64,000 nt of DNA. Origin: Phyllobacterium zundukense. GTDB lineage: Bacteria > Pseudomonadota > Alphaproteobacteria > Rhizobiales > Rhizobiaceae. The stretch covers positions 248,001 to 312,000 of the forward strand of contig NZ_CP017943.1 in NCBI RefSeq assembly GCF_002764115.1, given 5' to 3'. Within the stretch, counting starts at the first letter, position 1. The number at the start of each line of letters is the position of its first letter. The position numbers and the translations under genes were made by a program. A model generated the notes under the pieces. It saw only the letters and a program-made list of their open reading frames with translations. It did no database searches and was not told the origin of the DNA. Shown piece after piece: positions 58,943-63,897 of the stretch.

Positions 58943-59167
58943 TCACATTCTGCCTGCATTCTGGGCATGACACTTCATCCATCCGTCAACCGACCGTGGA
59001 GATGAGCCGTGAGTGACTAGATCTTCCACGTGCTGTTCCTCGCAGCGCAATTCGGCCAGAAGCAGGAGCGTGCCTCGGCAGCTCGTTTCCGGGTCGATGT
59101 CAGCCGCATCAACGCCGGCGCTGTAGGCCCCGAAAGTGCGGATGGCCGATGCGGTTTCAGCCGTCAT
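58943..59167 (-). CDS. Small hypothetical protein downstream of a broken PIN-like gene
   Basis: 74 codons; the ATG overlaps the TGA of the DUF5615-like relic (59164-59167). SAIRTFGAYSAGVDAADIDP and CRGTLLLLAELRCEEQHVED are the clearest parts. The last 25 residues look random. No known domain. Confidence 0.35.
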   Translation of the reverse strand: MTAETASAIRTFGAYSAGVDAADIDPETSCRGTLLLLAELRCEEQHVEDLVTHGSSPRSVDGWMKCHAQNAGRM

Positions 59168-59519
59168 AGCGTTCGCGAAGTTGGCAGCGCGTAACGCAGA
59201 ATGTGAAGTGTTTCGTCGTCTTCGGCTGTGACTTCAAGAATCTGATTTAGAAGGTCATTGTTGTCACCGATTTCGCGCAGCGCCTGCTCGAATAACTCGA
59301 CCTGCAGGTCGAGGTCCATGCCGGGTGGACCGTTGAGGCAGACTAGCCCCGCATGAATGGCGACATTCGCATACTGGCCCTTCGTTCCGGGCTTGTCCTT
59401 CGGCCCCCGGAAATCCACCGAGTTTTTGGTGACGAAAGTCCAGTCACCATCGAGGATGATCGGCTTCAGTTCTTAGTCCTTCAGGCCGCTCAGTTTCAGC
59501 CACACGACATGGCTGGATT
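59164..59519 (-). pseudogene. DUF5615 PIN-like toxin, N-terminus lost
   Basis: The minus strand reads SSHVVWLKLSGLKD, an in-frame TAA where family members have Trp, then ELKPIILDGDWTFVTKNSVD, FRGPKDKPGTKGQY and HAGLVCLNGPPGMDLDLQ to the end. This is the core and C-terminus of a DUF5615-type PIN-like nuclease, normally the toxin beside a DUF433 antitoxin. The first 25-30 residues, with the catalytic Asp, are replaced by a piece of another gene (see next entry), and a nonsense codon follows. No antitoxin gene is seen. Confidence 0.65.
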
Positions 59520-59711
59520 CATATGCAACTTTACGGATTGTCTCGTAGTGCGGCCATCTGTGCGGGTCATTGGTTCCGGCACAGCGGAATTGCAACGTCG
59601 TGAAGCAAATGATTGTCAATCAAACGTCCCTTGATCTGTTCCGCCAGCAGGCGGCCGATAGTAAATTTTCCGATCCCTAGCCAACGGTTGAGATGAATGA
59701 GCCGTCAACAT
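59520..59711 (-). pseudogene. N-terminal relic of a P-loop kinase/AAA-type ATPase
   Basis: Upstream of the PIN-like relic the minus strand encodes LIHLNRWLGIGKFTIGRLLA, then EQIKGRLIDNHLLHDVAIPL and a stop; after a frame change RWPHYETIRKVAYE runs directly into the SSHVVWLKL of the next relic. The Walker A is GIGKFT, and the pattern matches small kinase-like ATPases that begin MLIHLNGWPGxGK. A base change just after the ATG at 59711 also breaks the start. The two relics are joined by deletion or recombination. Confidence 0.55.
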
Positions 59712-59968
59712 TCCCATGGCTAAGCAAGTTGCATCCCGCAAGCGTTTGTCAAAGGCAATCGAGGTAGGAATGTCAGCTCCGGAGGCGGCAATGGTCGCCG
59801 GAAGGCACCAGCGGAGTGCGTTTCGAAGCGTTGGAAGGTGGCGGGCAAAGTTGACAAACTTAAGTTCTCAACGTTCAGACTGCTGTGAGTTGCACATGTG
59901 TGAATTCGTCGAGTAACTATGTCGAGTAATGAACGCGATTCGATTCGCATTTCGGGGGCGAAAATACC

Positions 59969-60922
59969 GTGGATGTAAATGGTGCAGGTGACCTAACTGA
60001 AAACCTCCCGCATCGCCTTATCGAGGGTGACGCCTTCGATGCCTTGGATTTAATCGATGACAATTCATGCCGACTTATAATTACTTCCCCGCCCTATAAT
60101 ATTGGCAAAGAATATGAACGTGATCAAAAGCGTTCCCTCAATGAATATTTGGAATGGCTCAGACCGATAGTGTCAAAAATCACGGACAAAGTTACGGACG
60201 ACGGGCACGTTTGTTGGCAGGTTGGAAACTACGTCAACAACGGTGAAGTGTTCCCTCTCGACTACTATTTCTACGAGATGTTCACTTCCGCTGGTTTCAA
60301 ACTTCGAAACCGGATTATTTGGCACTTCAACTTCGGTCTGCACGCCATGAAGCGTTTTTCTGGACGCTATGAGACGATGTTGTGGTTCACTCGTTCGGAT
60401 GACTACTTTTTTCAACTTGAGCCTGTGCTTGTTCCTCAAATATACCCAGGAAAACGTCATTCTCGATCAAAGGGGGCAAAGGCTGGCACGCCTAGCGGAA
60501 ATCCAAAGGGCAAAAATCCGTCCGATTTCTGGACTTTTTCACCAAGTGAGGCGTTCGTTGATAGTCCTATATGGGAGCTTCCAAACGTCAAAGCCAACCA
60601 CCCTGAAAAGACAATACATCCTTGTCCATTCCCTAGTGAATTGGTGGAGCGCTGTATCCTGGCTTTAACAGAGACCGGTGATAATGTTTTGGATCCCTTT
60701 GTGGGCACTGGTACCAGTGTTATTGCCGCCGATAAGCACAAGCGCATCGGTATAGGGATAGATCAAAGCGCAGCCTACGTGGATTTAGCGAAAGAGCGGC
60801 TGGAAAATCACAAATCAGGGCGGCTGTTTACGCGACCGATGGGGAGACCGGTTCGCCGCCCCAAGGAAGGCGAAGGAGTAGCAACTGTTCCTGCAGAGTG
60901 GCTGACCGAAGCTGCCGAATAA
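59969..60922 (+). CDS. Beta-class DNA methyltransferase (N6-adenine or N4-cytosine)
   Basis: A 317-residue site-specific DNA methyltransferase of the N6_N4_Mtase family. Catalytic motif IV TSPPYN is at 39-44, before the AdoMet motif I LDPFVGTGTS (241-250); this order defines the beta class. A DNA-recognition region between them includes NPSDFWTFSPSEA and NVKANHPEKTIHPCPFPSEL. TSPPYN fits either N4-C or N6-A. The start is GTG 59969 with GGGGGCG upstream. Only 18 bp separate it from the DGQHR gene. Both are visibly more A/T-rich than their neighbours, which suggests transfer as one cassette. Confidence 0.9.
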   Translation: MDVNGAGDLTENLPHRLIEGDAFDALDLIDDNSCRLIITSPPYNIGKEYERDQKRSLNEYLEWLRPIVSKITDKVTDDGHVCWQVGNYVNNGEVFPLDYYFYEMFTSAGFKLRNRIIWHFNFGLHAMKRFSGRYETMLWFTRSDDYFFQLEPVLVPQIYPGKRHSRSKGAKAGTPSGNPKGKNPSDFWTFSPSEAFVDSPIWELPNVKANHPEKTIHPCPFPSELVERCILALTETGDNVLDPFVGTGTSVIAADKHKRIGIGIDQSAAYVDLAKERLENHKSGRLFTRPMGRPVRRPKEGEGVATVPAEWLTEAAE

Positions 60923-60940
60923 GACCGGGTGAGGGGAAAG

Positions 60941-62767
60941 ATGGCCATCAAAGCCAAAAAAACGGTGATCAAAGCCAAAAAAACGGTGATCAAAGCCAAA
61001 AAGGCGAAAAAGCCAAAGGAGTCACCCGAGGAAAAAAAGAAAAAACGCATTAAGCGCAATCACATGAATTGCGTGAGGCGTACGTTTTTGAACACGGGCT
61101 TCGACCGTGTCTCTGAAATAGCTAATAAGGATATCATTTGGGGAAAGCAGGCCGGCGAATTTGATGATGCATTCATATACGAGAATCTCATCATCTTGGC
61201 CGAATATACGACTTCGCAATCTTCGGACACCTCGTCTCATCTGAAAAAAAAGAAAATACTTTTCTCCAATGTCTTGAACGATGCAAAGGCGTTTGTTGCC
61301 TATCTTCGTGCCATGTTCCCTGATTTTGACGCCCGCCTGGGCGCAAAATTCCATCCAGACAATCTCATTGTCCGCATTATATACTGCTCAGTTTACGACA
61401 TTGATGAGTCAACCAAACAGGTTGTAACTGAACCCATATACCTTGATTTCCCCCAGCTGAAGTATTTCGACAAACTGGCGTCGACTATTAAGGTATCCAC
61501 CATTCCTGAAATGTTGGACTTTCTCGAAGTGGACCCTGCAGACGTTGCCAAAAAAGGTGTATTCTCAAAAAAGAAAGCTATTGAGACATACGAAGGTTCT
61601 ATCCTCCCAGAATCTTCCTCTGGTTTTCCCGCTGGATACAAAGTTGTTTCGTTTTATGCCGATGCCGCGGCGCTGCTTGGCAGGGCTTATGTGCTACGCC
61701 GGGATGGCTGGAGAGGTTCCTATCAGGCTTACCAACGGATGATCCAGAAAAAGAAGATTGAGGCCATACGAAAGAAGCTTAAATCAGACAGGCAGGTCTT
61801 CGTAAACAATCTGATTGCAACGCTTCCATCGGATGTCCATCCGGTCGGGAAGGATGATAAAACCATCGAAATCTCAGAATTGACGAATACCCAGGCGGTA
61901 TCGATAAATCTCCCGCTCCGTGCCAATTCAATAGGTCTAATTGATGGGCAGCATCGCCTGTATTCTTACTATGAGTTGAAAGAAGACGATCCAGAGATCA
62001 AGCATCTGAGGCACCAGCAAAACCTCTTGGTCACAGGGATCATATATCCCCCAGACACAGTAAAGGAAGATGCGGAGCGTTTTGAAGCGACCCTGTTTCT
62101 TGCAATTAACTCCAACCAGACAAACGCGCCACCAGCTCTCCGGCAGGAGATTGAAGTAATTCTGCGTCCTTACAGTCCCACAGCTATCGGGAAGCAAATT
62201 ATGCAGAGGCTAGCGAGCGCAGGTCCGCTTTCAGGTTATGTTGAAACCCACGCATTCGACCATGGGAAGCTGAAGAGTACTTCGATTGTCAGCTATGGCT
62301 TGGGTCCACTTATTAAATTGGGCGGGCAAGATTCATTGTTTCGCTTATTTGAGCACCCCCAGAAGGACACTATCGCAAGCGAAGGTTCTTCCGAAGCCCT
62401 TGCTGCGTACTTGCAATTTGCAACTAGCAAGATCAACGCATTTCTCAATGCAGTGAAAAGCGATGTAGGGACCGAGCGGTGGACGGCTGATCGTTCCGTG
62501 GCTGACCGTGTGATTACAGTGACCTATATCAATACATTTTTGATAATCCTCAGACTGATTATTGAGAACGATATGCCAACAGATTTCGCGACTCTTAAAG
62601 CGAAATTGGCGGGGGTCGGCAATTTCCCCTTCAAGGAATTCCGTTCGAGCCAGTACAATCGCAGGGCTCAGGAAATCTTTGCCGCAAAGTTTAAGCCTGA
62701 CGGAAAAAAGGAACTAGCAGAAGACAAATCAGTTCCGACTGAGCTGGAACCTGAGACCACCTCCTGA
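60941..62767 (+). CDS. DGQHR-domain protein with possible nuclease-like N-terminus
   Basis: A 608-residue protein. Residues 1-40 are lysine-rich with a triple IKAKK repeat. Residues about 45-155 hold GEFDDAFIYENLIILAEYTT, where Asp75/76 and Glu88 sit as in a PD-(D/E)xK nuclease core, though the expected Lys is Thr90 and lysines follow only at 102-105. The DGQHR motif lies at 335-339 (GLIDGQHRLYSYYEL), with AINSNQTNAPPALRQEI after it, as in DndB-related ParB-like proteins. ATG 60941 is preceded by GAGGGGAAAG. Pairing with a methyltransferase suggests modification-dependent defence, with this protein as restriction or regulatory partner. The nuclease reading is inferred. Confidence 0.8.
   Translation: MAIKAKKTVIKAKKTVIKAKKAKKPKESPEEKKKKRIKRNHMNCVRRTFLNTGFDRVSEIANKDIIWGKQAGEFDDAFIYENLIILAEYTTSQSSDTSSHLKKKKILFSNVLNDAKAFVAYLRAMFPDFDARLGAKFHPDNLIVRIIYCSVYDIDESTKQVVTEPIYLDFPQLKYFDKLASTIKVSTIPEMLDFLEVDPADVAKKGVFSKKKAIETYEGSILPESSSGFPAGYKVVSFYADAAALLGRAYVLRRDGWRGSYQAYQRMIQKKKIEAIRKKLKSDRQVFVNNLIATLPSDVHPVGKDDKTIEISELTNTQAVSINLPLRANSIGLIDGQHRLYSYYELKEDDPEIKHLRHQQNLLVTGIIYPPDTVKEDAERFEATLFLAINSNQTNAPPALRQEIEVILRPYSPTAIGKQIMQRLASAGPLSGYVETHAFDHGKLKSTSIVSYGLGPLIKLGGQDSLFRLFEHPQKDTIASEGSSEALAAYLQFATSKINAFLNAVKSDVGTERWTADRSVADRVITVTYINTFLIILRLIIENDMPTDFATLKAKLAGVGNFPFKEFRSSQYNRRAQEIFAAKFKPDGKKELAEDKSVPTELEPETTS
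60947..61006 (+). repeat. In-frame 21-bp tandem repeat
   Basis: Two identical units of a 21-mer (starting ATCAAAGCC, ending ACGGTG) at 60947-60967 and 60968-60988, then a partial third unit to 61006. Each encodes IKAKKTV. Because 21 is divisible by three, copy change would alter the length of the basic tail without shifting the frame. Confidence 0.9.
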
Positions 62768-62977
62768 CAGTGTCAGGGTCGCGTAGGCAGCTGAAGAAGT
62801 AAGGCACATTTGAACCGACTTTCGATGTCGCCAGTCGAATGTTGGCACCGAGCGTTTCCCCCCGAAATAACGTGTTGCCGAACGACTGTGGATTCGCTCC
62901 GACCTTGCTCCAGCATCAATACCGGTCCCTTAAAACGCCCGCCAGATGGGGTGACCTTGGCGCGTACTTTGTCTTGG

Positions 62978-63073
62978 CCGAAAGAGGCAATTTACTTGGT
63001 CCCGCAACGCCTATGCGTGACGAATGCGGATATCGACCGGATCTACGAAGCCATTGATGAGGCGCGGACATAA
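62978..63073 (+). pseudogene. 3' relic resembling bioA
   Basis: PKEAIYLVPQRLCVTNADID then RIYEAIDEART and a stop resembles the last 30 residues of adenosylmethionine-8-amino-7-oxononanoate aminotransferase (pattern: vYLxPPLCVTxxxIDxxY). The rest of the gene is absent. The identification leans on the bioZ-like relic that begins 18 bp later, in the order of rhizobial bio operons. Confidence 0.45.
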
Positions 63074-63091
63074 TTGTCCAAGGCGGTCACC

Positions 63092-63459
63092 GATGAGTTC
63101 GGTCAAGGCAAGCCGTATCGCCGGGTTCTGCCATTACGCTCCAGAGCGCCGCGTTTGCGCAGATCGAAAACCAGCTTGATCTCGAACCCGGCTGGATCGA
63201 GCGCTGGATCGGCATCCGCGCGCGGCGCTGGGTCGTGCAAGGAGAACTGCTTACCGATCTTGCAGCAAAGGTGGGTTCGTTAGCGATGAACAATGCCAAC
63301 ATAGACCCTGGCGACATCGCGTTGACGATCCTGGCCACCTCGACCCCTGACCATCTGCTGCCGCCCTCGGCACCGCTGCTTGCCCATCATCTGGGCCTGG
63401 CGAACGCCGGCGCGATCGATCTTGCCGGAGCCTGCTCCGTGACAGACGTTGGACAATGA
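63092..63459 (+). pseudogene. bioZ: Truncated, frameshifted bioZ/FabH-like gene
   Basis: From ATG 63092 the frame reads [20 protein letters not shown]. After a shift near 63155 the neighbouring frame continues [60 protein letters not shown] and AIDLAGACS, ending just at the active-site Cys. This is the first third of a 3-oxoacyl-ACP synthase III. The HYAPERR and [20 protein letters not shown] wording and the bioA-like relic upstream point to BioZ, which makes the pimeloyl precursor of biotin in Rhizobiales. Two-thirds of the gene is missing. Confidence 0.7.
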
Positions 63460-63897
63460 AATCAGGGGAAGTGGGAACCGGTTCGCACGACGGCCCGTCG
63501 GCTGACGGTTTCTGCAATCGCGCCGGTCGCAGTGCCGGGCCCGGGCCTAGGCCCAAGGCTAGCCTCGCTTATCCGCAAGCTCCGCCGCAATGGCAACCGG
63601 CGGTTCGGGGATGTCTTCGGGACGAAGACAAGAAGGGATGGACAGCGCGTCCGCCCGACCCGAAAGGACATCCCGTGCAATTGATATTTGCCGATCCGCG
63701 CAGCCCGAAGGAAGATCCCGACAAGCTCCGCCAATCGAAATCCACGCCGTAGTCCGACGCACTTCTTGGGCGCATTGATCAGGGCGGTTGGCGTTGCGCA
63801 GCCACCCTTCGTCAAGTGCTCATAGCAGGCGGCGCCGTTCAGGTTACAACAGGCTTGTTCGCCCGGTTCGGCTGGAGTTCTAGATCGACTCTGTTCG
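63460..63897. other. Gene-free, GC-rich interval
   Basis: Many short frames on both strands overlap because stops are rare in this GC-rich piece. None shows a recognisable domain, and I see no terminal repeat that would explain how the bioZ-like gene was cut. Confidence 0.35.

Follow-up and report, generated by a model that had tools for sequence, protein, structure and literature searches.

A DNA methyltransferase gene paired with a DGQHR-domain fusion gene in Phyllobacterium zundukense: a probable two-gene restriction-modification system

A 64,000-nucleotide stretch of Phyllobacterium zundukense DNA, henceforth referred to as the window (C4:248001-312000, on a 586 kb contig of a 6.2 Mb genome in 6 contigs), contains two adjacent forward-strand genes that probably form a two-gene restriction-modification system built around a nucleotide-gated ParB-nuclease. 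The first gene (59969..60922) starts with GTG and encodes a 317-residue beta-class DNA methyltransferase, in which motif IV precedes motif I. The second gene (60941..62767) encodes a 608-residue protein, henceforth the fusion protein, in which a predicted nuclease domain is joined to a DGQHR/ParB-like domain. Support is good for the pairing of the genes and for the nuclease-like pattern of the fusion protein, and the best reading of them is restriction, with cleavage, the methylation target and defence inferred.

Both open reading frames (ORFs), and the gap between them, were confirmed where an initial annotation of the window had placed them. ATG 60941 is the likely start of the fusion gene, leaving an 18-bp gap after the methyltransferase stop, and the sequence AGGGGA stands 5' of it at 60932-60937. 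The longest fusion frame uses an alternative start, GTG 60929, and encodes 612 residues.

Linkage of the two genes

Loci were selected solely by likeness to the fusion protein. A search of genome contigs with the single fusion protein sequence gave no match, and a search with an alignment gave 130 relatives, the best 80 of which were used (81 rows with the window). A partner was defined as an ORF within 400 bp that matched the window methyltransferase by blastp at E <= 1e-3. A partner methyltransferase was present at 72/80 loci (73/81 with the window's own); the count takes in L014, with a broken methyltransferase gene, and L026, whose methyltransferase runs off the contig end. Homologues of the two genes therefore do not occur mainly apart, as the initial annotation had anticipated in treating them as one cassette. 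The methyltransferase lies mostly upstream of the fusion gene and elsewhere downstream or tail to tail; the genes are convergent in L045 and L065, and the methyltransferase is 3' of the fusion gene in L068 and L079.

Methyltransferases were also observed at most loci outside the 72. One lies directly upstream of a broken fusion gene in L055, two genes upstream on the same strand in L034, and 4.5 kb away on the opposite strand in L025. Another methyltransferase is located at 0.8-1.2 kb in L066, L067 and L069, with PF01555 matched in L066 and L069. L081 is a fragment at a contig end, and L073 is probably the remaining half. L071 has no methyltransferase; its fusion protein aligns only to residue 459, so that the gene may be cut short. 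Which gene of the pair is broken (3 vs 2) gave no signal of bias.

The partner methyltransferases (n=73) comprise 41 close relatives of the window enzyme, referred to as class A, and 32 distant ones, referred to as class B. Class B is a mixed set defined by low identity to the window methyltransferase, and L062 (305 aa, DPPY) is included in it. On a fusion-protein tree of 76 rows (38 A, 32 B with L062 counted as B, and 6 unlabelled, five broken or cut rows having been dropped), the class changes 7 times, with 6 changes forced by starred branches, compared to a mean of 23.5 upon shuffling. The kind of partner was thus exchanged while adjacency was kept, which argues for a working pair. Within class A, the identities of the two proteins correlate (Mantel r 0.79, with 0/2000 permutations as high; 35/41 pairs). 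A reverse survey of 397 genomes of the order identified a close methyltransferase (E <= 1e-40) in 3 genomes and the fusion protein (E <= 1e-30) in 2, both of which are pairs. The pairing of methyltransferase and fusion protein is not due to chance.

Predicted domains and motifs of the two proteins

The N-terminal third of the fusion protein was modelled with a predicted local distance difference test (pLDDT) score of 96, and PD-(D/E)xK nucleases are the best structural matches of the model. Residues 28-200 (61022..61540, forward strand) are assigned to a PD-(D/E)xK-like nuclease domain from this predicted fold, which contains the alpha-beta-beta-beta-alpha-beta core of the superfamily. The best-matching solved structures include the cleavage domains of Nt.BspD6I, R.BspD6I2 and FokI, with identities over the aligned part of 12-16% for the two BspD6I proteins and 8% for FokI; these enzymes differ from the window protein in their partner domains and in its Thr at the Lys position. 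Absences in the fold-match lists were not counted as evidence. No Pfam family was found on the N-terminal third and none was consistent across the 79 nuclease domains compared; searches with the fusion protein and with a nuclease profile likewise gave no useful sequence match to solved structures.

The initial annotation had highlighted residues 72-91, GEFDDAFIYENLIILAEYTT, as showing PD-(D/E)xK spacing with Thr in place of Lys. This pattern was upheld across the 79/81 alignment rows that hold the N-terminal part (window included), as was the presence of conserved acidic residues in a domain that best matches PD-(D/E)xK enzymes. Asp75, Glu88, His100 and Lys104 are conserved in 79/79 sequences and belong to the seven invariant columns, and Thr90 occupies the core Lys position in 78/79, with Tyr in L070. 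Together these five residues make up the predicted active site (61163..61252, forward strand), defined by conservation. The Lys expected two residues after Glu in PD-(D/E)xK enzymes is accordingly absent from the fusion protein, and Lys104 and His100, both invariant, are candidate substitutes for it. Two viral PD-(D/E)xK endonucleases are documented in a passage of PMC2940758 as taking their Lys from a later part of the chain, and the core Lys position is given as Glu, Gln or Asn in BamHI, BglII and MspI in the relevant part of PMC4081073. As a separate observation, the window fusion protein opens with a Lys-rich KKTVIKA tail encoded by three 21-bp repeats at 60937-61002; this repeat tail is absent from the aligned relatives.

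The DGQHR domain, already named in the initial annotation, was verified by a match to NCBIfam TIGR03187 above threshold (71.9 bits vs a cut-off of 58.85, E 7e-20), and the same model matches 36/36 members of alignment A1 at E <= 1e-3. The domain covers residues 222-410 (61604..62170, forward strand) as judged by profile and fold resemblance, and this part of the protein appears to resemble ParB domains. The DGQHR pentapeptide itself, located by alignment, is at residues 335-339 (61943..61957, forward strand); D and G are present in 80/81 rows and Q, H and R in 79/81, the remainder being gaps. A C-terminal helical region is predicted by the AlphaFold2 model at residues 411-585 (62171..62695, forward strand). 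Homologues of the fusion protein number 608 at E <= 1e-3 among 7996 scored candidates, the best 120 of which extend down to E 2e-157; public records label these 120 'DGQHR domain-containing' at most.

The window methyltransferase matches PF01555 (E 3.6e-48, 164.8 bits vs a cut-off of 26.7) and PADLOC MTase_II (E 2.7e-67), and its relatives in the PDB are MboIIA, RsrI and N4-cytosine enzymes. Its beta-class order was confirmed, with catalytic motif IV, Ser-Pro-Pro-Tyr (residues 40-43; 60086..60097, forward strand), located by comparison of partners and preceding the S-adenosylmethionine motif I, DPFVGTG (residues 242-248; 60692..60712, forward strand), located from the sequence. Motif IV was recovered in 71/73 partner methyltransferases, the window's own included, as TSPPY or SSPPY in 70/71 and as DPPY in L062; the two partners without it are L026, in which the contig end cuts the gene, and L029, which has a stop in the gene. 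The window methyltransferase is likely of the N4-cytosine type. SPPY is named as a hallmark of N4-cytosine enzymes in a passage of PMC6712171; the same passage lists S/DPPY/F, so that the assignment is no more than suggestive.

D242, P243 and G246 of motif I are each identical in at least 34/35 class A partners (35/41 compared, with six dropped because one gene of the pair is broken or cut), and the same holds for many of the residues that separate motif IV from motif I. The near-invariance between the two motifs suggests that class A methyltransferases recognise one common target sequence.

Distribution and surroundings of the pair

The fusion protein was found in 1/59 genomes searched, which is its own genome, and in 0/19 congeners. 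A survey of 398 genomes of the phylum gave 7 with a match at E <= 1e-3; 2 of these are full-length (the same 2 as in the order) and 5 are partial. Members of the family occur in Pseudomonadota, Bacteroidota, Bacillota, Planctomycetota, a Thermoplasmatota bin and phages. Plasmid records gave matches in 2/72,556, the full-length copy being on p2 of Rhizobium ruizarguesonis, where the pair is followed by IS66 genes. Phage records gave 1/50,697, the temperate Akkermansia phage Chantilly, in which the fusion gene converges with a class B methyltransferase and the two are placed between an integrase (with a 93-bp ORF intervening) and a repressor; no paper on this phage was found in the literature search. 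The loci on viral contigs (n=8) include 5 full-length copies, 5/5 with an adjacent methyltransferase, and 3 that match the DGQHR part only. L111, L112 and L115 appear to be L008, L019 and Chantilly because their alignment figures are identical; they were apparently already counted, so that only L113 and L114 are new among these pairs. Terminase, tail, baseplate, integrase and repressor families were each matched in the flanks of L111-L114 (43 genes).

Within the window, the pair stands out in composition, as the initial annotation had noted in calling it A/T-rich. The three consecutive 1-kb bins at 60001-63000 have G+C contents of 48.3, 45.2 and 50.2%, the lowest of the 64 bins, with the next lowest at 51.1%. 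The same annotation had proposed a mobile module between decayed genes. Mobility is supported by the phage-borne copies and by congener G008:C1, in which the flanks are shared (84% and 91% identity, blastn with an extended window) and the pair is missing. A precise empty site was not found, since at this place the congener has 2.2 kb of different sequence where the window has 4.77 kb (58996..63761). Decay holds downstream, where a gene of 329 aa in four congeners, which by eye we take to be ketoacyl-ACP synthase III, is reduced to residues 1-21 and 24-117 in two frames (63093-63438). It is weaker upstream, where a 227-aa congener gene survives from residue 24 to residue 225 and its frame changes close to the start. 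Separately, the stretch with the 3' fragment has three further copies and a weaker fourth elsewhere in its own genome. The distribution of the cassette is patchy and supports a mobile module.

Six small neighbouring ORFs were tested and gave no Pfam family over its cut-off. A scan for promoters and terminators gave 3 and 6 sites, respectively, near the 3.9 and 5.2 expected, and thus provides no evidence of either.

Across the 80 loci, 147 of 150 immediate flanking genes were used and three were left out. Compared with each other, these genes contain no constant third family; only the methyltransferase is constant. Defence families among them include PADLOC mad2 (5) and mad3 (3), and Pfam families include a BamHI-type nuclease (2) and Phage_integrase (4, the commonest family). 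These defence matches are illustrative only, because there was no control set and because fusion-gene pieces from L018 and L060 and a methyltransferase from L069 are included. None of the 25 Pfam families shown is a phage structural family (117 further families are not shown).

Several other arrangements were observed near members of the family. In L067:5646-7389, the fusion gene lies near another methyltransferase and an opposite-strand OkrAI/BamHI-like nuclease, and L066:5708-7526 has the same arrangement with a nuclease 72% identical to that of L067; neighbours of this restriction type speak for the restriction reading of the pair. In L109 (G661:C28:1000-13000) and L025:9787-15062, a class A methyltransferase is first in a different operon, followed by a 153-aa protein (in L109 a Pfam match to a BglII-type nuclease, E 1.4e-7), a protein of 426-445 aa, judged ParB-like by eye and lacking a Pfam match, an SNF2 helicase and a NOV_C protein; this operon is possibly another undescribed system with the same mark. 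A 192-254-aa protein (50-76% identity) recurs near the pair in Bacteroidota, at L031:9725-10486, L056:9723-10484, L034:9706-10452, L061:5766-6476 and L022:275-850. It is directly 3' in L031, L056 and L034, which also share a gene of ~295 aa upstream. The L034 copy had no Pfam or PADLOC match and the L031 copy had no solved relative. L034:4420-9725 is a four-gene row of a class A methyltransferase, a GHKL ATPase, a 300-aa protein and the fusion gene.

Comparison with known systems and rival explanations

Among the known systems closest to the pair are Type II restriction-modification systems of the BamHI/BglII kind, in which methyltransferases have N4-cytosine chemistry. The likeness consists of an SPPY beta-class methyltransferase gene beside a PD-(D/E)xK-like nuclease gene, linked at 72/80 loci (the nuclease by predicted fold only), and of a mobile, patchy occurrence. 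Unlike those systems, the nuclease of the window forms part of a 608-residue chain that also carries a DGQHR/ParB-like domain and a helical tail, and it has Thr for the core Lys. In GmrSD, too, a nuclease is coupled to a ParB/Srx-fold domain that has a DGQxR motif, but GmrD is an HNH enzyme and GmrSD cuts modified DNA, according to passages of PMC4619093. No HNH family was found in the fusion protein by a Pfam scan at E <= 1. GmrSD is not known to have a partner methyltransferase.

DndB shares the DGQHR domain of the ParB superfamily, and DpdB also has a DGQHR domain and is the sole PADLOC match of the fusion protein (E 2.2e-7); the window protein differs from both in its added N-terminal nuclease-like domain. 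Identity with DndB was rejected on 29.1 bits vs a cut-off of 450 for the dnd-associated model and 21.3 vs 29.1 for Pfam DndB, and identity with DpdB on 23.5 bits vs a cut-off of 300. A hidden dnd operon was also rejected, as dndC has no match in the genome at E <= 1e-3, in keeping with the lack of dndCDE genes reported in the initial annotation. A ParB match in a Thermus restriction paper concerned plasmid parB genes only. No description of the pair was found in the open-access literature searched, which covered few subscription papers and lay outside REBASE.

In the restriction-modification system that we favour, the methyltransferase would mark host DNA, probably with N4-methylcytosine in view of its SPPY motif, and the fusion protein would recognise and cut DNA without its partner's mark. 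The N-terminal domain would be catalytically active as a metal-dependent DNase, with the role of the missing Lys taken over by Lys104 or His100 from the following helix. The ParB/DGQHR domain would bind a nucleoside triphosphate and gate or position the nuclease on DNA, and the outcome would be protection from phages and other incoming DNA. As to nucleotide binding, a DndB-like protein is described as binding ATP and GTP in a passage of PMC12704722, and GmrSD offers a precedent for joining a ParB fold to a nuclease (PMC4619093, in part). More tentatively, the pair might be a restriction machine of a new kind, in which a ParB-type nucleotide switch would load a single-chain nuclease or let it clamp and slide on DNA, replacing the helicase or AAA+ motors of known restriction dependent on nucleoside triphosphates, while N4-cytosine methyltransferases that exchange freely would provide the self-mark.

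It is unlikely that the fusion protein is instead a modification-dependent Type IV, GmrSD-like nuclease acting against foreign modified DNA, with another role for the methyltransferase. The joining of a ParB-fold DGQxR domain to a nuclease in GmrSD (PMC4619093, in part) favours this explanation, but Type IV restriction has no need of the methyltransferase linked at 72/80 loci, and the fusion protein lacks an HNH family in the Pfam scan. We also consider it rather improbable that the fusion protein regulates or limits the methyltransferase, as DndB reportedly does for the dnd operon, its nuclease fold being a dead DNA-binding scaffold. DndB is indeed described as an ATP-dependent repressor in passages of PMC12704722 and PMC10853773, and the core Lys is replaced by Thr; yet the retention of Asp, Glu, His and Lys in 79/79 sequences across phyla would be needless in a dead scaffold, and the genes converge in L045, L065 and phage Chantilly.

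An abortive-infection unit, in which the nuclease would degrade the cell's own DNA or nucleotides once a phage disturbs methylation, is doubtful to much the same degree. ParB-superfamily proteins of conflict systems are proposed as nucleotide-depleting effectors in part of PMC10853773; nothing found in this analysis points specifically to abortive infection, and against it stands the lack of any constant gene family but the methyltransferase among the 147 flanking genes. The presence of copies in Chantilly as well as on prophage-like contigs, together with Phage_integrase as the commonest flanking Pfam family, would fit a phage-borne counter-defence pair whose methyltransferase shields the element and whose fusion protein aids its DNA metabolism. 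This explanation is very improbable, as 4/147 is few, phage structural families are absent from the 25 families shown, and the fusion protein is in only 1/50,697 phage records.

If the restriction-modification reading is true, the family labelled 'DGQHR domain-containing' would be a restriction system across several phyla and phages, and DNA cleavage would be directly linked to the ParB nucleotide switch familiar from chromosome segregation. The fusion family is PD-(D/E)xK-like with a conserved core Thr and offers material for catalytic study, and DGQHR domains would gain a testable role outside dnd and dpd operons.
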